A model generated the notes under the pieces. It saw nothing but the letters and a program-made list of their open reading frames with translations, was not told where the DNA came from and searched no databases. DNA of 26,338 bases. It comes from a virus. Both the position numbers and the translations under genes were made by a program. How positions within the stretch are numbered: position 1 is the stretch's first letter; each line of letters begins with the position of its first letter. Positions 451 to 26,319 of the stretch are shown in pieces. The stretch is taken from positions 1 to 26,338 of IMG/VR virus record IMGVR_UViG_3300025652_000456, one strand, 5' to 3'.

Positions 451-3400
451 ATGTCTACCTCATATAACCGCGACGCCTTTAGCGATTTGATGGAACAACT
501 ACGCATGCAAGGTACGCCTATGGGTGAGACAAACGCCCGAGGCAAATCTTCAATAGGTACCGTGGCTACCCCGACGAAGGGTGGGGGTTCTGCTACTAAT
601 GCTAGCGGAGCTGCCGGAGGCGATGACTTCTTTACGAACCTTGTAAATGCGGTTCAAACAAATCAGGCTTTAACTGCCGCTGCTCAAACTCCCGGTTCTT
701 CTTACCCCGGTTTTAGTGTTGGTGATATAGACTCTACAGCTTACATGCCCGCTACAGGGATGGAGGGCACAACAGGTCAAACGGGCATAACCACAGGGTT
801 TTCTAGCGATGTTTTTGGGAATAGCCAGTTTCAACAACCCGTTAACTTCGCTGGGGCTAGTAATGCCTTAGACACCGTATATATGAGTGACGTGTTTGGC
901 GCCGATTCACCTTTGGTTACCGATTTGTCTGGGGGTGTGGGTTCTTTTTACGGTCCCGACAAGCTGTATCCGGGAGATGTAGGGGCGGGGTACGACCCGG
1001 ATGCCTACTGGGCTTCGCAAGGTGTAAGTAAGAACCCAATTACTGGAAAAATTATAGACATTAGTAAGTACAATGTAACCGGTGGTGAACCCACTTCAAG
1101 CACCGCTGGGCAAGCAGCCGCCCCTACTGGAACGGATCAAGTTACTGTTACAGGGCAACGTGGAACTGGAATATCAGGGGTGCTTCCTTCTGCGGGCGTA
1201 ACTGCTATAGATGTAACTGGAAAACGCACTGACGACGAAACAGTAGTGGGTGGCGGACCGACCGTAAGCACCTTACCTGCGGGAGATGATATAACCGCTA
1301 TAGATGTAATCGGCCAACGCACTGATGACAAAGAGGAAGAAACTACGTTTTTTAACACTGCGCTTAATACTATAAGTACTGTTTCTGGTGTACCCCTAGA
1401 TAAGGTATACGAAGTAGTTACTACAGCAGAAAAACCGAAAGACTTAATCCTTAATGCCCTTGATTCCTTGGGCATAACCTTACCTGAATTTAACCTTGAC
1501 TTGGGCACTACTGGAGAAACATTTGAAGTTCTACCTGAAAACTTATTGCCGGGGTATTTTGATCCCGCAGTAACCGACGGCTCGGGCATGAACGACAACA
1601 CTACAGCAGGCACAGGCGGAGGAGATGGTCGCTCTATACCCCAACGTACGGCTATACGCAGCGTAGTACCGGGAACTTATGATCCTAATCGACGTGCAGG
1701 TAGTGGGGGGCAGAGGTACTTTAGCGATGTGCAGTACGTCCCCAATGTAGCTGACCCTGCGGCTCAAAGAACGGCTAACCTTGCAGCACAAGCACAGAGA
1801 AACACACAAGCTATGGATTTGGCGTTAGCTAATGCACGTAACCCTGCTCGTCAAGCAGCTCCGGGGGCTACGGACGTTTCTTTGGAAAATCGTGTTGCGG
1901 CATTACTGGGTCAGACACCGACTAGTCAAGTGGGTGCAGGTTTAGCTCCTACTGCGCAGACTACAGGTACAGCAGTTAACCCCAACGCAGCTTTAGAAGA
2001 GCTAGTACAAACGCTTATAGCTGGGCCTGCGGCTACAGGTACAACTACCGGAACAACGGGTGCAACTACCGGAACAACGGGTGCAACTACCGGAACAACG
2101 GGTGCAACTACCGGAACAACGGGTGCAACTACCGGCACAACAGGTACAGCAACTACGGGCAGCACGTCGCCATACACCTACACTTCAGAGTCTTTATTCC
2201 AAGGTATCGACCCTAGTGACGGGTTTGACGAAACAGAAATAGGTCGCGTTGCAGCTCTTATGAACCAAAACTACACCGATGCGGGTCAGGTTAGTGAGTT
2301 TTTCAACATGAGTCCGGAAGATGTAAACCGATACCTTGGTGACTACAATAAGCGTACTGAGCTAATAAAAGACCTAGGTTTAACCGAAGGACAACAAGGG
2401 TTTACTTTTGACCAGCTAAGTAAGATTGGCGCTAGTGGGTTAGAGAACCAATACCTAGCGGATACTTTTGGGGTAGACGCTGATGCTCTACAACGTGCGG
2501 TTGGCGGGGCTAGTACTATTACTGGCTTGGATTCTGCTAACGGTTTGAGCTTAGATCAGCAGGGTACAATAGCAGGCTTGTTAGAGTCCGGCGACGTTTC
2601 AGTAAACAATGTTGCCAAGTTGTACGGCATATCTCCCGACGAAGTCCAATCTGGATACAGCACCTACAAGAACACTGTGGCGCAGAACGCAGTTAACGAA
2701 ACAATTGACAGTGGAGACTTTGACGCCATTGCAGAGTTAGTTACTTCGAATAAAGCCGGTATTAGTGATGTAGCGAGCAGGCAGGGTACTGAAGGTATGG
2801 ACGTTGTAGAACAGCTACTACGTGGGGGCTATGAAACTCCAGCGCAAATGGCAGCACGCCTAGCCCCTGCGAACGAGGGACTTACTGAAGTTGACCTAGT
2901 TGCTAACCTGTTAAATACAGGCCGGGCAAAGCCGGAAGAAGTAGCCTCATACTACAGAAACACAGACCCTGAGCAGTTTGCGGACTTAACAGCGCAAGGC
3001 GTAGAACAATACTTAGCTGACATAAACAAACAAAATACTACCGATTACCTTAAGGGGCTATCTGATGAAGAAGTAGGAGCGTTGATAAACTCAGGTGAGC
3101 TAGATATAGGGGAAGCAGTAAAGTTTTATCAAGACAGATACCCCGGTCTTACCTTAGCCGACGCGCAAGCGTCCATGAAAGCTATGGGGTATGCCCAAGG
3201 CGGCAACGTTCAAGGCTACTACTTAGGTGGTCCAACAGATGGTATGGCGGACCAAATTCCTGCTACAATCAACAACATGCAGCCAGCAGCGCTAAGTGAC
3301 GGGGAGTTTGTAATTCCTGCCGATGTAGTAAGCCACTTAGGCAACGGCAACTCCGAGTCTGGAGCAAAAGAATTATACGGAATGATGGACCGGATACGTG

Positions 3401-3462
3401 AAGACCGTACCGGCACTACCAAACAAGGGCGTCAAATTGACCCCAACAAATACTTAGCGTGA
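451..3462 (+). CDS. Repeat-rich putative virion protein, 1003 aa
   Basis: This long protein sits in the virion block, with an AGGAAGGA ribosome site 7-8 bp before its ATG. Residues 1-400 are Gly/Ser/Thr-rich and carry a twice-repeated AIDVxGxRTDD unit at about 250-290. Residues 531-565 are a Thr/Gly tandem repeat encoded by 21-bp DNA units. From about 597 to 905 there is a run of degenerate helical units of roughly 50-60 residues. They share a pattern of 'I..LL.SG..s..eVA.fY.isp.eV...l', clearest near 597, 700, 810 and 870. The C-terminus has a Gly-rich stretch (YAQGGNVQGYYLGG) followed by LSDGEFVIPADVVSHLGNG, a closing segment I recognise from many phage structural proteins. No catalytic motif is seen. 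Tail, internal or ejected protein are all possible. Confidence 0.8.
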   Translation: MSTSYNRDAFSDLMEQLRMQGTPMGETNARGKSSIGTVATPTKGGGSATNASGAAGGDDFFTNLVNAVQTNQALTAAAQTPGSSYPGFSVGDIDSTAYMPATGMEGTTGQTGITTGFSSDVFGNSQFQQPVNFAGASNALDTVYMSDVFGADSPLVTDLSGGVGSFYGPDKLYPGDVGAGYDPDAYWASQGVSKNPITGKIIDISKYNVTGGEPTSSTAGQAAAPTGTDQVTVTGQRGTGISGVLPSAGVTAIDVTGKRTDDETVVGGGPTVSTLPAGDDITAIDVIGQRTDDKEEETTFFNTALNTISTVSGVPLDKVYEVVTTAEKPKDLILNALDSLGITLPEFNLDLGTTGETFEVLPENLLPGYFDPAVTDGSGMNDNTTAGTGGGDGRSIPQRTAIRSVVPGTYDPNRRAGSGGQRYFSDVQYVPNVADPAAQRTANLAAQAQRNTQAMDLALANARNPARQAAPGATDVSLENRVAALLGQTPTSQVGAGLAPTAQTTGTAVNPNAALEELVQTLIAGPAATGTTTGTTGATTGTTGATTGTTGATTGTTGATTGTTGTATTGSTSPYTYTSESLFQGIDPSDGFDETEIGRVAALMNQNYTDAGQVSEFFNMSPEDVNRYLGDYNKRTELIKDLGLTEGQQGFTFDQLSKIGASGLENQYLADTFGVDADALQRAVGGASTITGLDSANGLSLDQQGTIAGLLESGDVSVNNVAKLYGISPDEVQSGYSTYKNTVAQNAVNETIDSGDFDAIAELVTSNKAGISDVASRQGTEGMDVVEQLLRGGYETPAQMAARLAPANEGLTEVDLVANLLNTGRAKPEEVASYYRNTDPEQFADLTAQGVEQYLADINKQNTTDYLKGLSDEEVGALINSGELDIGEAVKFYQDRYPGLTLADAQASMKAMGYAQGGNVQGYYLGGPTDGMADQIPATINNMQPAALSDGEFVIPADVVSHLGNGNSESGAKELYGMMDRIREDRTGTTKQGRQIDPNKYLA
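2042..2146 (+). repeat. 21-bp tandem repeat, five copies, in frame
   Basis: The core CAACTACCGG recurs at 2042, 2063, 2084, 2105 and 2126, an exact 21-bp period. The first four units are identical and the last is diverged. Each unit encodes seven residues (TTGTTGA), making a Thr/Gly linker between the disordered N-terminal half and the helical C-terminal half of the 1003-aa protein. Because the period is a multiple of three, copy-number change would alter linker length without a frameshift. Confidence 0.95.
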
Positions 3463-6558: not shown

Positions 6559-9500
6559 ATGGCTTTTGATTATGCAGGTGCTAAGAGTGCAGGGTATTCC
6601 GACGAAGAGATAGCAGGGTTTCTAGCTAAGCAACATAACTTTGACTTAGCTGGTGCTATTTCTTCGGGCTATAGTTATGCCGATGTTGCGCCGTTTCTAA
6701 GCGGTAACCCCGCACCTGTAGAAGATCAATCATTCCTTCGTAGTGTAGCCGATGTACCTCTTCAAGCAGCTAAAGGTGCGACCTATGGCGTGCGCGCTAT
6801 TACTGAAGCTTTTGGTGCAGATAACGAGCTATCTCAAAGCCTCCGTGGCGTCGAAGATTATGTAGACAGCCTTCTTTCCGCGCAGTCTAAAGCGGATAGT
6901 GCCGAAATTGCTCGCATACAAAAAGAGGCGGAAGACGCCGGTGCTTGGGAACAAGTAAAAGCTGCGGTAAAAGGTATCTCTATAGCTCCTATTGATTTCA
7001 TGGCGAACGCGGTAGGCACCGTAATCCCTGCGGCTGCGGCTGGTTTGGCGGCTACACTTGCGGCCCCTGTAGTGGGTTTAGGTGCGGCTACTGCGGCTAC
7101 TGTAGCGGGTGTTGGTACTGGTGCTGTTATGGGCGCGGGTATTGGCAAAGGCGCTATTTACGACGCAGTTAAAGACGAAATGCTTAAGCAAGGTTTAACC
7201 GAAGAGCAGGCCGAGTCTGCCGCGGACGAAGCTCAAAGCTATAGCGGAGAAAACTTAGACCAGATAGCCCTATCTACAGCACTAGGTGCTTGGGCAGCAA
7301 AGTCAGGACTAGAACCCGCGTTAGCCCGCATGGTATCTACCAAGGCCGCTGAAGGCGTGGCTAAGAAAGGTATCCTCAAAGGTGCCGTTAGCGGTGCAGT
7401 TACTGAAGCAATTCCAGAAGCAGCGCAAGGCGGTCAAGAACAACTCGCTAGAAACATTGCCCTACAGCGTGAAGGTGTCGACGTGCCTACCATGCGGGGT
7501 GTAGTTGGTGCCGGTACGCTAGAAGGATTAGCCGGAGGTATGGCAGGTGCTGGTGTGGGTGGCGTTACTAACCGCGGAGTAACCGAAGAGGGCGCATTAA
7601 CTACAGCCGAGTTAGAGCAAGTAGCTCCTGCTGAAGCCGCACCAGTTTCAACCGTTGACGTGACTGCTGATGTGGGCGATAGAGACCTCACAGATGAAGA
7701 GCTAGCCGCCGTTCTTGACGCAGGTCCAGTAGACCTAGCCGATGAGGCAGAAGTTGAAGCAGCAGTTGCCCCAGAACAAGCCCAAGCCCAAGCCCAAGCC
7801 CAAGCCCAAGCCCAAGCCCAAGCCCAAGCCCAAGCCCCAGCACCAATGGACGAAGCTCCTGAACTTAGTGACGTTGAAGTGGAGCAAATGCTAGCTGCCG
7901 CGGCCGATGCAGAAGCAGCCGGAGAAGTAACCGAAGAAGTAACCGAAGAAGCATCGAAGGTAACCCCTACTACAGTGTCTTCTGCATTGTTCGATGCTTT
8001 GCGTGTACCGAAAAACGCAGGCGTAAGAAAGAACTCAAACCTAGAGGGTATGTCTTTAAGCGACCCTCAAGTAGTCACCGCGTTAGAAGCAGCGACGAAC
8101 GACCCAAAAATGCCTACGACGGCAACCAGAAATATAAACAACCTGCTAAAAGGCAATGTTCCTGTTGTTGGAGCCGCCCCTGAAACTGCACCTGTTGAGA
8201 GTCCTATAACCGTCGATGGAAGCGCGGCCACATTCAACACCCCTAGTGGAACAACCACCGTTAAAATGGATACCGCCGAGCAGGCGCTAGAAACCGCTGA
8301 AAAGTTGCAAGTAAAAGCCGCGCCCCCAGTAAAAGTTAAAACAAACGGACTAAAAGCGCAGGGTAAACAGGTAACTAAACCGCGGAAGCCTAGAGTTCAA
8401 TCTGGTAAAACAGACGAAGAGAAGAGGGCGACTAAGAACGAGCAGGCTAGGTCTAACAAAGAACAACGCACTGCGGCTACAAAAGCGCTTGGGGTTTTAA
8501 ACCTTACGCTCGATGAATGGTTTGCCGCTCTCGGAGCCACTACAGATGCAGAAAAGCAGGCTGCGGCTACTGTTATTCAAGGCGCACGAGACAATGCGCT
8601 AGCCAATGCTTACCGTGTACGCAACAACCCTGTAAACAAATCTCGTAAGAAAGTGCTCGAAGTTGCTGACGAAGCAATAAACAACGCGCAGATAGACCCC
8701 GAAGAACGTGCACGAGCGGAAACCACTGCTAAGAAGAGTACCGCTATTGTTAAGGCTGAGGGCGTGACAGATGAAGAAGCTGACGCCGAAGACCCCACGT
8801 TCATGGACTTCGAAACTGGACGTGATGCTGTTGAATATATAAAAGAAGCAGGTGATTCCTTCCAGAAGATACTTGCTACCCGCTTGGCCCCGTTACTACG
8901 CGGCGTTAAAGTGGTAGTTGTAGAAGACCCCGAACTAGACATAACTGACCCTGATGCACTTGCTGCGTTTGATGGCGCCCGTGGTTTATACGTAGACGCT
9001 ACCAAGACTATATACCTGTCTGCTGAAAGCGGTTTAAACAACACGGTAGTTCTGCACGAAGCATTGCACGCGGCGACAGTAGCCAAGATTGAAGCTTACC
9101 TGAACAACGCGGGTAAAGGCTTAACAGATAACGAGAAGAAAGCAATCGAAGAGATTATGGCCTTAATGGCTGCGGCTCAAGATCGTTACGCTCAAAGACA
9201 GCAAGCCGGTACGCTAACCCCTGCGTTAGAAAGATTGTTTGAAAACGGTGCCTTCGAAGACGCCCGTGAATTTGTGTCCTACGGTATAACACAGCCAGAA
9301 ATGCAAGAGTTTTTAGGCTCTACCCCCGGCACTAATATTGTTACTAGTATATTTACAGACTTTGTAAACGCCTTGCGTCGCATGTTCAATATACCCACTA
9401 GCATGAGCAATGCGTTCTTAGATTTGGTAGCCGTAACAGATGTCTTACTCGGTGAAGAAACTACCACTATTAGTAGTAGTGCTATTGTAGCTGCGAAAAA

Positions 9501-12500
9501 AGCGGCGAAAGAGAAAGCCAAGAAAGTTACTGCTGAAGAAAACAAGATAGAGAAGAGCAACAAAGCCTCTGAGATTAATGACGCCGCGGGCAAGCTTATG
9601 CTGCTGACGCGTAACTCTGATGAGAACATAGGTCTTTTACGTGCCGCCTTTAAGGCTATGGACGTAGCGGGGGTAAAGGCTCTTATGCCGGTCCTAACTA
9701 CTACAGACATTACACGTTGGATAGGCGAGAGGCTAAATAACGTCAAGGGCATAAACCGTCTAGTGCAGGATATGGCCGCTGCTCGTAACAAAGATATTCG
9801 TGAACTGGCTGAGAAAATACCCGAATGGGTCGCATTTAATAAGGCTAGTGAGGCAGGTGGAAAGCTATTAGGCGACGTAATGCACATAGCTACTCTACTA
9901 CAGGTAGACCCAAGCGCGCATCCAACCCTAGCTGCTGCCTTGCAACAGGACGAAGAACTCAACGACTTAAAGGCTAAGGCCGCCGAGATAGGGCTTTCAC
10001 CACGACAAAAGTCTGCCCGCCAAGGTAAGGTAACTCAGCGTACTAACCAGATAAAAGGCGTGTACCAAATGTGGAACAAGCTCGGTACCTACGAAAAAGG
10101 TAAAGGGTATAAAATCTACAGCATGGCTAAGAAAGCCTACGAGACTACGTTTGAGAGGCACCACAAAATACTGGTGGATAAGGTTACTAATGCTAACGTA
10201 CCTGCTGACGCAAAGAAAAAGCTGCTGGCCTCTATAACTTCTAACTACCAAGAAGCAAAGAAACTCAAAGTCTACTTCCCGTTGATGCGTTACGGAAACT
10301 TTTGGATGCGTGTGGGTAAGGGTAAGGCGGGTGAGTTCTACATGTTTGAGTCTGCTACGGCTCGAAACAACTTCCTGCGTATTAGAGCAGAAGAGCTACA
10401 GAAAGCAGGTGACCAACGCTCTATTACTACAATGCTAGAAGACGGCGACTTAGACATAGGCGACCAGTTAGACAAGGGCCGTAACCAGTTTGTCGATTCA
10501 AGCCAAATGCTGAAAGGTGTCTTTGACCTGCTAGATAACACCGGCATGCAAGACATAGAGGCAGTAAAAGATCAGGTATATCAGATGTACTTGATGACTC
10601 TGCCTGACAGAGATATACGCCGTCGCTTTACTAACAGACAAGGTAAGACCGGTTTCAGTGCCGATGTTATCCGTAACTTCATTACCTCGCAGCATACGTC
10701 TGCAAATCAACTCGCTAGGTTAGAGTTCTCCGAGCCGATACGTAGAGCAATCGAGCAGGCAGAGAAAGAACTTGAGGGTCTAGGTAAAGACGAAGGACAA
10801 GAGAAGCTAAAGCTAGCTGCTATGATTGAAGAAATTAAAAAGCGGGCTATGGCGGAAATGACTCCTTCTGTTCCCGGCGAATTTGATTTTGATAAGCTTG
10901 CTTCGGTCGGCAACCAAATAGTATTTATGTACATGTTGACCGCGCCTAAATCAGCGCTCGTCCAGTTAACGCAGTTGCCTATTGTGGGTACTTCTGTGCT
11001 TGTTGGTCGGGGTTATGGCAAAGCAAACGTATTTAAAACTATGGCGCGCTACTCTAATATATTTAGGTCTCTAGGCACGTCAAAAACTGATGCCGACGGT
11101 AACGTGACTACTAACTTCGGTGAGCCTTCTATTAACGACTCGGGTTATGTTAACAACCACCCAGACCCAGAGTACCGCAAAATACTTAAAGAGTTCTGGG
11201 AAGCAGGTCGTGACCGTGACGTATACATGGCAACCTACGCTGCCGACATGAACTCAAGGTCTAAAAGCCCTACTGCGGCATTTGATAACCCCGCTACTAA
11301 AGTTATGCGGGGGGTTATAGACTTTATGAGCGGTGCTTTCCACCATACCGAGCGTATGTCCCGTGAGATTATGTTTATGTCTACGGCAGAGCTTGAGTTC
11401 GCCAAACAGAAAAAAGCGGGGGCCACTGATGCAGAAGCCAAAGCTGCGGCTATTGAAGCTGGAGTAGATGTAACATACGAATCTTTGTTTAATTATACGC
11501 AATACGAAAAGCCGCGAATAATGAAGACTCCTGTAGGTAGAATATCTACACAGTTCTTAACCTTCCCATTGCAAATGACTTCGTTTTTAATCCGAAATGG
11601 CCTAGGTATGATAAAGGCACAGCCTACTGCCGGAGCGCGTAAGGAAGCAGCGACTAAGTTTTTTGGCACACTGGGTATGACCGCTATGTTTGCTGGTGTA
11701 GTTGGACTGCCGGGTTTTTCAGCCGTTATGGGTATGGCCGAGATGTTACGTGAAGCTATGCGTCCCGATATGGACGATGAAGATGCGGACGGTTGGTATG
11801 ACGTAGACGACAACGGAAACCCACTGGGTAAAAGAGACTTACACTTATGGTTCCGTGAAATTTTCTTGCCTAGCATCTTCGGTCCGGGTAGTTCTGTAGC
11901 TGACTTCCTAGGGTTAACTGATGCGCAGGCAAAACTACTACAACGTAGCGTAGAACTAGGACCAATCTCTGCTATTACCGATATGAACGTAGGCGCATCC
12001 ACCGCACTTGACAACATGTGGTTCCAAGATAGCGTGCCTTCAAAAGACCTAAAGAGTGGTTTCCAACAAATGGCGTTCAACGGTATTTTTGGTCCGTTAG
12101 GCAGTATGGGTGAGCAAGTAATGTCTGGTATAGACGACATAAACAAAGGTAACTTCAGTCGGGGCATGGAGAAATTTGCACCTGCGTTCTTCCGCGGTAG
12201 TCTTAAAGCTGCACGTTTGTCCGAAGAAGGGGAGTCTACTGCGGGAGGGTTTAAGCTCAAAGAAGCAGAGTGGTATACCACGGGTAAGATACTAGCCCAG
12301 ACTTTAAATTTCTCTAGTACTGAGGTTGCGGAAATACAGAAAGCTAACTTCTTAGCTAAGCAAGTAGCCGTGGGTATAGAAAAAGATCGTACGAAAGTGC
12401 TTGGTTTACTCGACACTGCAATCACTAAGTACAATACGAACCCGACGGATGCTAGGTGGGAGTCAGTGGAGGAAGCTTTACATGGAGTGCGGCAATACAA

Positions 12501-12654
12501 CTACGTTAATGGCTTCTATCCTATAGAGACGGACACGGTTAACAAGTCACTTAAGGGCAGGGCTGAAACTAGGGCGGGAGCATGGCAAGGTCTGTCAGTA
12601 TCCCCTACTATGGCACCGTTTATCTACCCACTAGTTCAAAGCAGTCGAGACTAA
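6559..12654 (+). CDS. Large polyvalent-type phage protein with HEALH metallopeptidase motif, 2031 aa
   Basis: This is the largest gene in the window, with an AGG ribosome site 8 bp upstream. Residues 1-50 contain two 'GYSxxxIAxFL'-like units. Residues about 147-198 form a long Ala/Gly/Val hydrophobic stretch that could insert in membranes. About 407-426 is a Gln-Ala run. H833-E834-A-L-H837 is a zincin zinc-binding motif, and E904 in REFVSYGITQPEM is a plausible third ligand, as in metallopeptidase domains of phage 'large polyvalent proteins'. Around 1740-1751, DEDADGWYDVDD matches a calcium-loop spacing. The C-terminal third contains helical and hydrophobic segments typical of such proteins. 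Phage proteins of this kind are generally thought to be packaged and ejected with the DNA. I infer that role here, and the peptidase activity is predicted only. The gene ends at the convergent junction. Confidence 0.8.
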   Translation: MAFDYAGAKSAGYSDEEIAGFLAKQHNFDLAGAISSGYSYADVAPFLSGNPAPVEDQSFLRSVADVPLQAAKGATYGVRAITEAFGADNELSQSLRGVEDYVDSLLSAQSKADSAEIARIQKEAEDAGAWEQVKAAVKGISIAPIDFMANAVGTVIPAAAAGLAATLAAPVVGLGAATAATVAGVGTGAVMGAGIGKGAIYDAVKDEMLKQGLTEEQAESAADEAQSYSGENLDQIALSTALGAWAAKSGLEPALARMVSTKAAEGVAKKGILKGAVSGAVTEAIPEAAQGGQEQLARNIALQREGVDVPTMRGVVGAGTLEGLAGGMAGAGVGGVTNRGVTEEGALTTAELEQVAPAEAAPVSTVDVTADVGDRDLTDEELAAVLDAGPVDLADEAEVEAAVAPEQAQAQAQAQAQAQAQAQAQAPAPMDEAPELSDVEVEQMLAAAADAEAAGEVTEEVTEEASKVTPTTVSSALFDALRVPKNAGVRKNSNLEGMSLSDPQVVTALEAATNDPKMPTTATRNINNLLKGNVPVVGAAPETAPVESPITVDGSAATFNTPSGTTTVKMDTAEQALETAEKLQVKAAPPVKVKTNGLKAQGKQVTKPRKPRVQSGKTDEEKRATKNEQARSNKEQRTAATKALGVLNLTLDEWFAALGATTDAEKQAAATVIQGARDNALANAYRVRNNPVNKSRKKVLEVADEAINNAQIDPEERARAETTAKKSTAIVKAEGVTDEEADAEDPTFMDFETGRDAVEYIKEAGDSFQKILATRLAPLLRGVKVVVVEDPELDITDPDALAAFDGARGLYVDATKTIYLSAESGLNNTVVLHEALHAATVAKIEAYLNNAGKGLTDNEKKAIEEIMALMAAAQDRYAQRQQAGTLTPALERLFENGAFEDAREFVSYGITQPEMQEFLGSTPGTNIVTSIFTDFVNALRRMFNIPTSMSNAFLDLVAVTDVLLGEETTTISSSAIVAAKKAAKEKAKKVTAEENKIEKSNKASEINDAAGKLMLLTRNSDENIGLLRAAFKAMDVAGVKALMPVLTTTDITRWIGERLNNVKGINRLVQDMAAARNKDIRELAEKIPEWVAFNKASEAGGKLLGDVMHIATLLQVDPSAHPTLAAALQQDEELNDLKAKAAEIGLSPRQKSARQGKVTQRTNQIKGVYQMWNKLGTYEKGKGYKIYSMAKKAYETTFERHHKILVDKVTNANVPADAKKKLLASITSNYQEAKKLKVYFPLMRYGNFWMRVGKGKAGEFYMFESATARNNFLRIRAEELQKAGDQRSITTMLEDGDLDIGDQLDKGRNQFVDSSQMLKGVFDLLDNTGMQDIEAVKDQVYQMYLMTLPDRDIRRRFTNRQGKTGFSADVIRNFITSQHTSANQLARLEFSEPIRRAIEQAEKELEGLGKDEGQEKLKLAAMIEEIKKRAMAEMTPSVPGEFDFDKLASVGNQIVFMYMLTAPKSALVQLTQLPIVGTSVLVGRGYGKANVFKTMARYSNIFRSLGTSKTDADGNVTTNFGEPSINDSGYVNNHPDPEYRKILKEFWEAGRDRDVYMATYAADMNSRSKSPTAAFDNPATKVMRGVIDFMSGAFHHTERMSREIMFMSTAELEFAKQKKAGATDAEAKAAAIEAGVDVTYESLFNYTQYEKPRIMKTPVGRISTQFLTFPLQMTSFLIRNGLGMIKAQPTAGARKEAATKFFGTLGMTAMFAGVVGLPGFSAVMGMAEMLREAMRPDMDDEDADGWYDVDDNGNPLGKRDLHLWFREIFLPSIFGPGSSVADFLGLTDAQAKLLQRSVELGPISAITDMNVGASTALDNMWFQDSVPSKDLKSGFQQMAFNGIFGPLGSMGEQVMSGIDDINKGNFSRGMEKFAPAFFRGSLKAARLSEEGESTAGGFKLKEAEWYTTGKILAQTLNFSSTEVAEIQKANFLAKQVAVGIEKDRTKVLGLLDTAITKYNTNPTDARWESVEEALHGVRQYNYVNGFYPIETDTVNKSLKGRAETRAGAWQGLSVSPTMAPFIYPLVQSSRD
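7777..7836 (+). repeat. Hexanucleotide (CAAGCC) repeat, 10 copies
   Basis: CAAGCC is repeated ten times without interruption, encoding ten Gln-Ala pairs within an acidic, low-complexity linker of the 2031-aa protein, upstream of the metallopeptidase region. A six-base unit keeps frame, so slippage would change linker length only. Perfect identity of the copies suggests recent expansion. Confidence 0.95.
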
Positions 12655-12676
12655 AAAAACCCCGCATTGCGCGGGG
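12653..12676 (-). terminator. Rho-independent terminator for the - strand operon
   Basis: CCCCGC (12660-12665) pairs with GCGGGG (12671-12676) around a 5-base loop. Read on the - strand the hairpin is followed directly by seven T residues (12659-12653), the classic intrinsic terminator layout. It lies just after the last - strand gene (stop at 12686). In the + direction there is no T-run after the stem, and the A-run instead forms the end of the TAA stop of the 2031-aa gene. The site therefore mainly stops leftward transcripts from running antisense into the virion genes. Confidence 0.85.
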
Positions 12677-12685
12677 TAAGCCGAG

Positions 12686-21275: not shown

Positions 21276-21523
21276 TACTCATTCCCGCCTTTGTTTTTTG
21301 TAGGGCGCATCGCACCTATGTCTCGGTTGGTTGGGTCGGTTAAAGAATCAAACCGGCTACCAGAAAATCTTTGCTTCGGCCCTTCGGTTGGCGTAAACGC
21401 ACGGGGCGGGCACTGTGTTACCTTACCCCCTTTAGCTAAGTACTCTTTTATTTGTTGCGCTAATTCTTCACGCTGTGCGTCTTTTTGTTCTTCGGTGTCT
21501 ATATCTATCTTAGTAGTGGTCAC
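21275..21523 (-). CDS. Small phage protein with 'YLAKGGKV' motif, 82 aa
   Basis: This starts with GTG overlapping the TAG of the hydrolase gene (TAGTG), in line with the one-base junctions of its neighbours. It has an acidic helical N-terminus (EEQKDAQREELAQQIKEYLA), then KGGKVTQCPPRAFTPTEG and a basic, probably disordered tail. The 'helix + (F/Y)LxxGGKV' element recurs in many small phage and proteobacterial proteins, some called regulators, but I cannot assign a function from it. A later ATG is not available before the motif, which supports the GTG start. Confidence 0.65.
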   Translation of the reverse strand: MTTTKIDIDTEEQKDAQREELAQQIKEYLAKGGKVTQCPPRAFTPTEGPKQRFSGSRFDSLTDPTNRDIGAMRPTKNKGGNE

Positions 21524-21930
21524 TAGTTAATACCCGTATAAAACACATGCCTGTGTATCTTAGTTGTAACTTCTCCGGTGTAAGCCCACTGCGGGAACAC
21601 CTTTGTACTATGGTAGTGGGTTGCACCTTCTGTAATATCCGGTACGAACCCACTTAAGTGCGCAATGTACAGCGAGTTAAACCATGCCTGTTTGTTCCTT
21701 GGCTCGTCTGACCTACCGTCACAATAAAAACTAAACTGGCACTTGTTTCTTATGGGTACACCGTTCCAGTAGTACCCCTGCTTAACCACGTCACACGCAT
21801 TGTCTGGGTAACGTGAGTCTTCAATTCTGTTTTGGATTACATGAGCTACAGCAATCTGTCCTGCTGTCGGCTCCCCCCTTGCTTCGAAGTACACTGCCAT
21901 AGCAACGCACATCATCGCAGGGGTAATCAT
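21523..21930 (-). CDS. SleB-type cell wall hydrolase (candidate endolysin), 135 aa
   Basis: The protein contains the Hydrolase_2/SleB signature: AVYFEARGEPTAGQIAVAHVIQNRI with the proposed catalytic E16, then CQFSFYCDG and GATHYHSTKVFPQWA. Family members cleave peptidoglycan glycan strands. I choose ATG 21930 because it forms an ATGA junction with the upstream gene's stop; a GTG at 21957 would add nine residues. The domain fills the whole protein, with no separate wall-binding domain and no clear secretion signal. No holin is identifiable nearby, and the gene lies among early genes rather than with virion genes. It may be the endolysin, or a hydrolase with another role. Confidence 0.82.
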   Translation of the reverse strand: MITPAMMCVAMAVYFEARGEPTAGQIAVAHVIQNRIEDSRYPDNACDVVKQGYYWNGVPIRNKCQFSFYCDGRSDEPRNKQAWFNSLYIAHLSGFVPDITEGATHYHSTKVFPQWAYTGEVTTKIHRHVFYTGIN

Positions 21931-22130
21931 CTGAAAAACCCTTTGGTCTTTAAACACCGTATTGTTTTTGCTGCTCGTATACGTGTTTCATAGTCGAAAG
22001 AATCCCATCTCGCTTCTAGCAACGCGATACTAAATGCTTTCCGCGTTACGGCGAATATCTTTGCTACGCTTACTACGTCATCTGGTGCCGTATAAAATTG
22101 TTCAGCTATCATTCGATCGTTAACAAACAT
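21927..22130 (-). CDS. Small hypothetical protein, 67 aa
   Basis: GAGGA is placed nine bases before the ATG, and the stop overlaps the hydrolase ATG by four bases. The protein is helical and ends basic (FDYETRIRAAKTIRCLKTK). The middle (DDVVSVAKIFAVTRKAFSIALLEARW) could be a helix-turn-helix, or simply an amphipathic helix. No membrane segment of holin length is clear, although the location directly before the hydrolase makes one worth considering. I do not recognise a family, and function is unknown. Confidence 0.65.
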   Translation of the reverse strand: MFVNDRMIAEQFYTAPDDVVSVAKIFAVTRKAFSIALLEARWDSFDYETRIRAAKTIRCLKTKGFFR

Positions 22131-23836: not shown

Positions 23837-23963
23837 CGTAGTCTCCTTGGTCTGCTAGGTACTCAGCACGATCGCGTGCAATATCTTCGGGACTTACGTA
23901 GTCCTCTTCTAGTGTGTTCAAGTACCTGTCTAGGTCTACCATTACTGGGTCTTTATCATTCAT
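23829..23963 (-). CDS. Small acidic protein, 44 aa
   Basis: ATG 23963 has AAGGGG upstream and overlaps the end of the 95-aa gene by 8 bp. The frame ends at TAA 23829, 8 bp into the 31-aa gene. The product is strongly acidic (MNDKDPVMVDLDRYLNTLEE, then YLADQGDYDE), compatible with a small inhibitor or DNA-mimic-like protein, but the length is too short for a firm call. Together with the 31-aa gene it fills an otherwise empty 210-bp interval. Confidence 0.6.
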   Translation of the reverse strand: MNDKDPVMVDLDRYLNTLEEDYVSPEDIARDRAEYLADQGDYDE

Positions 23964-24243
23964 TAGCGTGCCCCTTACTTTTTCGGTTGAGTTTATCTGC
24001 TAGGTAGTTGTTTTTCGATGTACCTACCGATGTTTTCCATTCTTCTTTAGCTCCATCTTCATCGGTCTCCAACTTCATGTACACAATAAACCTCGTTGGG
24101 TTCGATGCCGTCTCTACCGCATCAAAGAAGTAACCCTCGTGCGCTTTATCATTCAAGAAATCTTGCAGTCTGTTTACAGTCCCCTCTGCATCTTCTTTGT
24201 CCCAAACAATCTCTTCGACTAGCCACTTTTCTTTGTCTTCCAT
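23956..24243 (-). CDS. Hypothetical acidic protein, 95 aa
   Basis: The frame is open to a GTG at 24297, but I choose ATG 24243 because AGGAGA lies eight bases upstream. The sequence is MEDKEKWLVEEIVWDKEDAE with a helix (VNRLQDFLNDKAHEG), then strands (YFFDAVETASNPTRFIVYMK), and a basic C-terminal tail (NRKSKGHANE). This two-part alpha-beta layout is typical of short 'early' phage proteins. No motif allows a function. It is the first gene after the hairpin-rich non-coding region, so it may head a transcript starting within that region. Confidence 0.65.
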   Translation of the reverse strand: MEDKEKWLVEEIVWDKEDAEGTVNRLQDFLNDKAHEGYFFDAVETASNPTRFIVYMKLETDEDGAKEEWKTSVGTSKNNYLADKLNRKSKGHANE

Positions 24244-24300
24244 TGTCTTTCTCCTGTTTAAATTATGGTGCGTGTTTCCACTAACAAATATCCCCACCCA

Positions 24301-24490
24301 TTCAGTTCAACTTGCTCACTTAACACGACTAACCGTCTCGTGGCTTACTCGGCAACGCATCAGTTAAGGTGTGGCACTAGCCCCGTAAAGAAGCTAGATG
24401 CTTGGGACTGATCGTTAACTGTGGGTGTTTTTACAGACATGCCCACCGCCCACTGGGACACGGGTAGGTAACAACTAGAACCCTACCCAA
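24301..24490. other. Non-coding region with clustered inverted repeats
   Basis: Between the polymerase stop (24496) and the 95-aa gene start (24243) lie about 250 bp without a convincing gene. They hold several inverted repeats: CACGA/TCGTG (24324-24342); outer CAGTTAA/TTAACTG (24361-24367, 24415-24421); nested GCACTAGC with GCTAG-A-TGC (24374-24401, eight pairs, one bulge); GTGGG/CCCAC (24421-24446, with an inner TGT/ACA); and GGGTAGG/CCTACCC (24462-24488, seven perfect pairs). None is followed by a T-run, so they are not standard terminators. A structured RNA, or a DNA element such as a replication origin, would fit. Confidence 0.6.
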
Positions 24491-24495
24491 TCAAA

Positions 24496-26319
24496 TTAAC
24501 AATCTCCGTATGAAACACCGAACCCGCCTTCACAATCAAGCGGTAAATCCTGTGCCCATAGCGGTCGCACTTTCATCGTATCTTCCACATGCTTCATAGC
24601 TACTTCTACTTCGTCTTCTGGTACTACGCAGCCTATCGCATCATGCACAGTCATCGCTACTTTATAGGTCTTAGCAACGCGTAGTAGCTGCTCACCTATT
24701 ACGATTCTAGCTAGGGCTTGGCATAAATTCTCAATAGCCTTCCCTCCATATATCCTATTATCTATAGTAGTTCGCCCACGCTTGGTGTCGTAAACCATTT
24801 CGGTCCGACCCTCTTCGTTAGTTATTTTCCGCAGGTTCGGGTACCTCAAGTACAAACCATTGGGTAGCTTGATCCCGTTACTACCTTCCACAATAAGCAC
24901 GCCTTCTTTGCCTATTGGTGCGGAACAGTTATCAATCATACCCTCGAGAGCTTTGCTAGCAGCACGCCACAGTTCTGGTATTCTGTAGTATGTGGTGCGG
25001 TATATCTGAATGATGCGCTCACACTCTTCTTGCGGCAGGTCTACACCAAAGGTCTTAAGCTGAGCACGGAATTTATTAGCACCCATGCCGTAGCCACAAC
25101 CCAAGATTGTGGTCTTACCTATAAACCGTTCGTCTTTTGTTATCTCGCTCTCGGGTTTGCCGTATATAGAAGACGCCATGATTTTGTATACATCGTCACC
25201 TCGATCAAAGGCTAGCACCAAATCATCCTGCCCTGCGAGCCACGCTAGCATACGAGCCTCAATCTGCGATAAGTCACAGTCGATAAACCTATAGCCCTCC
25301 GGTGCACGCAACGCTTTCTTGAGGGTAGACCCACGAGGTAAGTTCTGCATGTTTATCTTGTCGTCCCCGCCCCACCTGCCCGTGTGTGCAGCATAGTAGC
25401 GTAAGGGTATGGGCAGTGGACCTCGATCTGCTATGTCTATGAAACGCTGCGTACGCGTCTCTTCTATCGTAGACTTAACGCCCATGCGTGCGGATACCAA
25501 TGCTTGAACGTACGGGTCTTCATGCTCTAGTAATGCCTTGAACCCCTCATCACTCTTGGCGAACGCATAGGTCTCCTTACCGGTAGTTAGGCTTATCTTA
25601 GTAGGGGCTACCACCCCCCGATCGGCTAGAAGTGCAGCGAACTTCGGGTTGCTCATCAGCTCGCTACGGTCTTGGGTAATCATAGCCATCAGCTCTGCCT
25701 TCTTAGCTTTCACACCTTCTAAGTGGTCAGCTAGTATGCGCTTGTCTAGCACTATGCAAGGCTCAGTAAACATGCGGATGGTTAGGTCTATTAGCTTAAG
25801 CTCAACGAGCGGGAAACCTCTACCGAGTACCTTAAAAAGTTTGTACGTAAGCTCAGTGTCGTTAACACAGTAACCCGCATACGCCTCCATCTCCTCGGGT
25901 GTAAAGTCTAGTCGCCGCTTGTCTAGCGCGTTGAGCACCTCGGTGCCTTTAGCTCCTAAGTTATAGTAGGTAACCAAAGCACTAAGGCTTCCACCTACCT
26001 CAATGGTGTGTAACGCGCGTGCCATAGATAATGTATCTACAATCCGTTTGGGTCGTATGTCGAAGTGCCAGTTGAGTATAGCCATGTCGAACGCAGCATT
26101 ATGTGCTACAGCTACGGCATCGTCCCAATCGAACTTATCTAAGAATTTCTTTGTGTCTTTCTTAGTGCCCGAGAACCATTCTGTTTCTCCATCGCCCACC
26201 TTTACACTTACTCCGATAACTTCAAAGCGTTCGTGGCGTATGTACTCTTCGGTCGTACACTTACGCAGCCCGTAGTCTTTAGCGTAGTAAGTTTCAAAGT
26301 CTAATGTGATTAGCTGCAT
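24496..26319 (-). CDS. polA: Family A DNA polymerase with 3'-5' exonuclease, 607 aa
   Basis: This is the replicative polymerase of the phage. The exonuclease motifs are DFETY (D7, E9), AHNAAFDM (N74, D78) and YCVND (Y150, D154). The polymerase motifs are TGRWGG (R315) with NMQNLP, motif A DLSQIE (D349, E354), motif B with R398, K402, L406 and Y410 (KTTILGCGYG), and motif C VHDA (H559, D560, A561). There is no 5' nuclease domain, as usual for phage enzymes. The residue matching E. coli Phe762 is Leu406, and motif C has Ala where most have Glu (HDE). The ATG is preceded by GAGG about seven bases upstream. A promoter would lie to the right of the window. Confidence 0.93.
   Translation of the reverse strand: MQLITLDFETYYAKDYGLRKCTTEEYIRHERFEVIGVSVKVGDGETEWFSGTKKDTKKFLDKFDWDDAVAVAHNAAFDMAILNWHFDIRPKRIVDTLSMARALHTIEVGGSLSALVTYYNLGAKGTEVLNALDKRRLDFTPEEMEAYAGYCVNDTELTYKLFKVLGRGFPLVELKLIDLTIRMFTEPCIVLDKRILADHLEGVKAKKAELMAMITQDRSELMSNPKFAALLADRGVVAPTKISLTTGKETYAFAKSDEGFKALLEHEDPYVQALVSARMGVKSTIEETRTQRFIDIADRGPLPIPLRYYAAHTGRWGGDDKINMQNLPRGSTLKKALRAPEGYRFIDCDLSQIEARMLAWLAGQDDLVLAFDRGDDVYKIMASSIYGKPESEITKDERFIGKTTILGCGYGMGANKFRAQLKTFGVDLPQEECERIIQIYRTTYYRIPELWRAASKALEGMIDNCSAPIGKEGVLIVEGSNGIKLPNGLYLRYPNLRKITNEEGRTEMVYDTKRGRTTIDNRIYGGKAIENLCQALARIVIGEQLLRVAKTYKVAMTVHDAIGCVVPEDEVEVAMKHVEDTMKVRPLWAQDLPLDCEGGFGVSYGDC

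Follow-up and report, generated by a model that had tools for sequence, protein, structure and literature searches.

A conserved pseudoknotted RNA downstream of polA in aquatic phages and its relation to the Rfam family RF03044

The gap behind polA and its operon

The stretch of viral DNA considered here, called the window, comprises 26,338 nucleotides (IMG/VR record IMGVR_UViG_3300025652_000456). The initial annotation had pointed to a sizeable non-coding interval after the polymerase gene, and such an interval does exist, as a gap of 252 nt (24244-24495) bounded by the stop codon of polA and the ATG start codon (24243) of the next gene, both on the minus strand. The operon strand of the gap is non-coding, barring a possible GTG extension of the downstream 95-aa gene. 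The following features surround it:

24496..26319, minus strand: polA, family A DNA polymerase, 5' of the RNA (PHROG 17, E 3.9e-90)
23956..24243, minus strand: downstream gene of 95 aa, function unknown, without PHROG match; RBS at 24247-24255
12659..12677, minus strand: intrinsic terminator that closes the early operon, an 8-pair stem followed by TTTTTT

In the family to which the window belongs, the gap and the RNA described below occupy a mid-position in a same-strand early operon of about 20 kb, which contains polymerase, helicase, exonuclease and primase genes; in those contigs that reach far enough, the RNA lies approximately 8-14 kb into the operon. Within the window, neither a recognisable promoter close to the RNA on its upstream side nor a terminator nearby was found. 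Among the other genes of the window, an endolysin-type gene (PHROG 938) is located inside the early replication operon (21523-21957, minus strand), a 2031-aa protein containing a long QA repeat (6559-12654) matches the DarB-like antirestriction PHROG 10089 with its C-terminal half, and a 1003-aa protein (451-3462) with a Thr-Gly-rich repeat (ATTGTTG-type, ~2060-2180) has no PHROG match.

Judged by its repeats and its folding energy alone, the gap would have been dismissed. The inverted repeats named by the initial annotation are present, but their number remains close to chance: two exact 7-mer inverted repeats occur against 0.53 expected (35 of 400 shuffles reach two) and four exact 6-mer repeats against 1.9 expected (48 of 400 shuffles reach four), a weak excess. 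No excess of folding stability over shuffled sequence is apparent, with non-significant z-scores of -1.31 for the plus strand and -0.24 for the minus strand. No tRNA or tmRNA gene was detected by ARAGORN, and no Rfam family reached its gathering threshold when the window was scanned.

Covariation and anatomy of the RNA

A search of IMG/VR with the polymerase yielded 398 relatives, 80 of which were kept. The non-coding gap is conserved at the same place in these relatives, nearly all of which carry the same RNA directly after the polymerase stop codon and in the sense of the operon. The shared element opens with an optional GC-rich hairpin and the motif CCCCAGYGGGCGGTGGGY...AACACCCRCAG; next come a long helix of variable sequence and CCGRNTAA, followed by a hairpin whose loop reads ACGCTAC or ACGAGAC. 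This pattern is present in 78 sequences, the window included, and absent from five; one of the five, L054, has the element but differs from the pattern by one substitution, whereas a search of the complete records of L071, L074, L079 and L080 with the model gave no match. Between the window and L018 or L042, only 31% of the fourfold sites of the polymerase gene are identical, against 57% and 53% of the positions of the RNA cores.

Covariation among the homologues is very strong. Across 37 sequences, the 24 pairs examined show 95.2% pairing and 153 compensatory cells against 49 in shuffles, none of 500 shuffles reaching 153, and in 54 sequences that include the 5' flank, 25 pairs distributed over four helices are paired in 95.7% of 1340 cells with 273 compensatory cells against 92 +/- 12 in shuffles; such cells represent sequences and not independent events, so that these counts overstate independence, a weakness from which the controls with a slid partner are free. 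When the partner was slid by 1-3 columns in the 54-sequence set, pairing dropped to 27-54%. The helix P1 consists of five pairs that join the nucleotides just 5' of helix PA to nucleotides of the PA loop, which results in an H-type pseudoknot; taken alone, this pseudoknot is 94.8% paired, with 29 compensatory cells against 10 in shuffles, and its variants include UACCC/GGGUA and AACCC/GGGUU, besides UGUCC/GGGCA in the window. The paired columns also reveal the strand. A G-U pair of the sense strand corresponds to an A-C mismatch on the opposite strand, and the 95 G-U cells found against five A-C cells therefore indicate selection on an RNA of operon sense, i.e., of the minus strand of the window.

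The gap is thus predicted to encode a structured RNA of about 190-225 nt, transcribed with the early operon from the minus strand of the window. The structured RNA proposed at the outset is strongly supported by the compensatory changes, the covarying pseudoknot and the strand test, and we regard it as virtually certain that a genuine conserved structured RNA is present. Its parts are located as follows in the window:

24267..24492, minus strand: complete structured RNA made of P0, the pseudoknot P1/PA, P3/P4, P5 and P6 (alignments A3 and A4)
24462..24488, minus strand: P0, optional 5' hairpin GGGTAGG/CCTACCC; comparable GC-rich hairpins precede the core in many relatives
24456..24460, minus strand: P1 5' strand UGUCC of the pseudoknot, partner of 24440-24444 (A3 columns 7-11/23-27)
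24440..24444, minus strand: P1 3' strand GGGCA, partner of 24456-24460
24449..24453, minus strand: PA 5' strand GUGGG, partner of 24421-24425 (A3 columns 14-18/81-85)
24421..24425, minus strand: PA 3' strand CCCAC, preceded by a conserved AACA (A3)
24445..24448, minus strand: loop CGGU between PA and P1, with G20-G21-U22 as invariant columns
24408..24419, minus strand: P3 5' strand GUUAACG-A-UCAG; all 11 of the 11 P3 pairs covary
24352..24363, minus strand: P3 3' strand CUGA-UG-CGUUGC with a conserved UG bulge (covariation)
24374..24401, minus strand: P4, variable distal hairpin with several compensatory changes (A4 columns 109-118/134-142)
24331..24345, minus strand: P5 hairpin AGCC-ACGAGAC-GGUU; 4 pairs, 100% paired, three of the four changed on both sides
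24271..24327, minus strand: P6 hairpin CGUGUU...AACACG with a conserved apical CUGAAUGGGUGGGG (alignment A4)

About a dozen unpaired bases are invariant in the alignment. The ACGNNAC loop of P5 recurs in other subgroups. P6 is a plain hairpin in other relatives and is missing from the largest subgroup; its apical loop in the window (24292-24305, minus strand), CTGAATGGGTGGGG, shows strong conservation across the window clade, and a similar CTGAATAGGTGGGG occurs in L093 and L154. The covariance model R1 matches the window at 24458-24329, the window itself having belonged to the training set of R1.

The gap is accordingly structured, as had been claimed, with the minus strand as the functional one and only some of the listed stems conserved. 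The eight-pair stem at 24374-24401 corresponds to P4, which relatives keep with substitutions. The perfect seven-pair stem 24462-24468/24482-24488 also exists and is the optional P0. As for the nested repeat CAGTTAA/TTAACTG (24361-24367/24415-24421), it is present in the window but is not the conserved pairing: the relative L001 disrupts it (TTAACCG) yet retains ATCAG/CTGAT in the form ATCGG/CCGAT. Expression early in infection, another of the initial proposals, would fit the location of the RNA, which is surrounded by replication genes of a same-strand operon and has no terminator in its vicinity.

A phage RNA superfamily linked to RF03044

On comparative grounds, the window RNA belongs to a superfamily of phage RNAs which also includes compact RNAs from Pseudomonas phages and which is statistically linked to the orphan Rfam family RF03044 (Proteo-phage-1). 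Pattern scans and cmsearch recovered more aquatic members together with a compact form of 107-109 nt (E ~1e-7 to 1e-8), found in phages and prophages of Pseudomonas aeruginosa including PAJU2 and PMG1. At least five subgroups can be distinguished, most of them missed by Rfam. The absence of any match to a known RNA, noted at the outset, holds at standard thresholds, but a sub-threshold and in-register link to RF03044 exists. Against a gathering threshold of 42 bits, which neither of them reaches, RF03044 scores 29.8 bits (E 9e-4) with the Pseudomonas prophage form and an insignificant 14.9 bits (E 2.7) with the window, for which it is nonetheless the best same-strand Rfam match, in the same register as in the Pseudomonas form. 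In the reverse direction, R1, built exclusively from the window family, matches two RF03044-type loci, L359 (E 3e-4) and L331 (E 1e-3); the record of L331 scores 71.7 bits with RF03044, above the cut-off.

The RF03044 model covers 82 positions, corresponding to the 5' half of the RNA only, and the resemblance extends beyond them. Within the model, the 5' hairpin, the P1 strand pair and the AACA-CC(G/C)GC-AG motif are shared. P0 of the window (24462-24488) aligns to the 5' stem of RF03044 upstream of P1, as a hairpin that is optional in relatives; the P1 strands which flank the 5' strand of PA pair together, with covariation, in RF03044-type loci as well as in the window family; and the motif that combines AACAC with a GCAG-type element on the 3' side of the P1 hairpin loop, AACACCCACAG in the window, is aligned in register by cmscan. 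Past the 82 positions, RF03044-like cores display the same PA/P1 pseudoknot, with a covarying P1 (CACUG/CAGUG, CGUCG/CGACG, GGGG/CCCC, CGAGG/CCUCG), and a P3 with its UG bulge. Among 49 distinct P3 strands, 37 pair at six or more of seven positions with their own downstream sequence, compared to 13.5 (maximum 20) after an exchange of partners, and UG precedes the partner P3 strand in 22 of these 37 well-paired members. Both kinds of RNA occur in phage operons and sub-threshold matches run both ways. The two differ, however, in PA (GYGGG/CCCRC in the window, GCCGG/CCGGC in RF03044), in the linker between P1 and PA (2 nt in the window, mostly 3-4 in RF03044), in the longer P3-P4 and the extra P6 of the window, and in the phages concerned, which for the window are aquatic polA phages. 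Further compact subgroups mix these features, and two members, L465 and L467, possess the ACGAGAC P5 loop of the window type.

The window RNA is regarded as a divergent variant of the RF03044 kind, which is not a member by the Rfam criterion, with a better defined fold and a new range of phages. A single 252-nt gap thus leads to a large and well-defined RNA superfamily, some members of which occur in cultivable Pseudomonas phage isolates. With its pseudoknot, UG bulge and ACGNNAC hairpin, the full-length fold extends RF03044 past its modelled positions and offers concrete mutants together with a concrete hypothesis. The aquatic subgroup may already be listed in large surveys of viral structured RNAs.

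Natural variants are also encountered. In the Pseudomonas phage phita81A (L445, 6001-6168), the P1-PA pseudoknot is lost exactly between two GCGGCTTC repeats, and records 5371 and 5399 match at an identity and a length equal to those of phita81A; all three are probable natural deletion mutants. Elsewhere, INPHARED contained no match to the window region and plasmids no DNA match. Pattern matches in bacterial genomes look like chance, the best R1 score there being 20 bits. R1 had no match in 298 genomes of the Pseudomonas family and RF03044 a single sub-threshold match in 369 genomes, although a lack of matches in searches of this type is weak evidence. Upstream of the polymerase gene of L068 (2573-2646), a sub-threshold match to AaHKsRNA82, an Aggregatibacter sRNA, was noticed (37.2 bits, cut-off 51.4).

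Genomic contexts and possible modes of action

In all the contexts inspected, the RNA has the same orientation as the operon around it, with one convincing copy per record with hits. Its surroundings vary. In a sister group (L102, L108, L110, L120 and L147) it is located away from polA, and in Pseudomonas phages it belongs to the cI-proximal (PL-type) early operon, upstream of recombination genes, with a first downstream gene that differs among loci. A further location, seen in phiAH14a, Solano and prophages related to them, is behind early genes (with ninG and a gene in the Q position) and ahead of the late genes, for lysis or terminase. In this late-leader subgroup, 19 of 32 loci have an intrinsic terminator behind the RNA, its usual distance from PA being 127-130 nt, compared to none of 114 members of the three early-operon subgroups in the same interval; in Solano, terminators occur on both sides of the RNA. 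The late leader of phage lambda (PR'-tR', 6S RNA) offers a comparable layout with the Q gene, a leader, a terminator and the late genes. In contrast to lambda, the RNA itself is highly conserved in the late-leader phages, and the proteins in the Q position match only PHROGs of unknown function, 3412 and 3373. A phrog_3412 protein is encoded directly upstream of the RNA in L347 (7555-8100, minus strand), L361 (8834-9601) and L442 (5008-5694); AlphaFold yielded a low-confidence model of it for which Foldseek returned no significant match, and neither its family nor its fold ties it to antitermination.

That the RNA is co-oriented with its operon, lies inside it and, ahead of late genes, is coupled to a terminator favours a role in cis on elongation or termination. 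Another operon-internal RNA, the EAR (epsC) RNA of the Bacillus eps operons, is said to promote processive antitermination; EAR had no Rfam match on the window or the relatives scanned. Our preferred reading, a tentative one, is that a cis-acting RNA modifies the elongating RNA polymerase and favours read-through in long phage operons. The RNA would fold while emerging from the polymerase and, either unaided or together with factors of the host or the phage, would act in cis on the elongating enzyme, which could then read through the downstream pause and termination sites of the operon. The closest parallel in mode of action would be the put RNA of HK022, likewise a phage RNA within long transcription units, which needs no dedicated protein to suppress termination and remains effective over at least 10 kb; put measures about 70 nt, folds into two stem-loops that form a minor-groove triplex, and is present twice, just after the early promoters (PMC9378689). 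The fold is unrelated, however, with an H-type pseudoknot and further helices instead of two stem-loops, and a single copy per record lies many kilobases into the operon; the RNA would therefore act like put without being put. The RNA-only antitermination of put involves the beta' zinc-binding domain. If correct, the reading would add a second fold to the very few RNAs known to act directly on elongating polymerase. A bolder proposal, that phage RNAs with this second fold are widespread, turn RNA polymerase termination-resistant on their own, in the early operons of some phages and the late leaders of others, and explain Proteo-phage-1, is unlikely.

Several observations speak against the cis-elongation reading. 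The single copy in mid-operon of the window family is unlike put, early-operon members lack a close downstream terminator and the operon of the window still ends in a strong one. The deletion in phita81A means that the pseudoknot is not indispensable there, and the missing tie of phrog_3412 to antitermination counts in the same direction. The terminator right behind the RNA, which favours a cis role in the late-leader subgroup, also suits a stand-alone small RNA. A trans-acting phage small RNA, excised from the operon transcript or terminated within it, would bind a protein or RNA of the host or the phage and might thereby disable, for instance, a host factor. This is a close rival, possible if somewhat unlikely in itself, which the single copy per record and the terminator behind it fit almost as well. 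The changing loci, the terminators on both sides of the RNA in Solano, the invariant unpaired bases and the classification of the related Proteo-phage-1 as an sRNA by Rfam all agree with it. In the early-operon groups, however, such an RNA has no terminator of its own, nor a recognisable close upstream promoter in the window; with a stop codon directly before it and an RBS directly behind it, it would have to be processed at both ends, and in some phages P1 begins within or beside the polymerase stop codon.

The same site between stop codon and RBS, together with the conserved unpaired bases, could suit an mRNA element that controls the stability or processing of the polymerase mRNA, or the translation of the next gene in a riboswitch-like manner, including pairing of a GUUCUCC loop with the Shine-Dalgarno sequence. 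In L015 (1897-2046) and L039 (3572-3713), the P3 loop contains a GUUCUCC that could pair without mismatch with the Shine-Dalgarno sequence GGAGAAC of the gene downstream, but neither the window clade nor the compact forms have this motif, and the genes on both sides of the RNA change between phages, which argues against the control of a single gene and renders this explanation quite unlikely. A self-cleaving ribozyme that cuts the operon transcript would account for the pseudoknot, the many invariant unpaired bases and the mid-operon site; since the window and the relatives scanned matched no Rfam ribozyme family and no comparative sign of a cleavage site is seen, it is considered very improbable. 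Weaker still is the case for a replication origin or another DNA-level signal, one of the two readings initially put forward. The element adjoins the polymerase gene and contains inverted repeats, but G-U pairs are retained on one strand only, cumulative GC skew declines steadily through 24 kb with no inflection at the element, and homologues reside in unrelated places such as PL-type operons and late leaders, so that a role of this kind is extremely improbable.

Three narrower proposals were discarded. The complementarity of GGGCGGTG to the decoding region of 16S rRNA is broken in relatives such as L056. Pseudoknot-driven read-through of the polymerase stop codon conflicts with in-frame stops that vary and with an RNA that is not always beside the polymerase gene. 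Anti-Shine-Dalgarno pairing via GUUCUCC as a general role is contradicted by the occurrence of the motif in some subgroups only.

Finally, annotated hypothetical CDSs overlap the RNA, one of them antisense, in L319 (7941-8078, ORF050 of PAJU2) and in L442 (5763-6293, AH14a_p55); both are possibly spurious annotations over a non-coding element.
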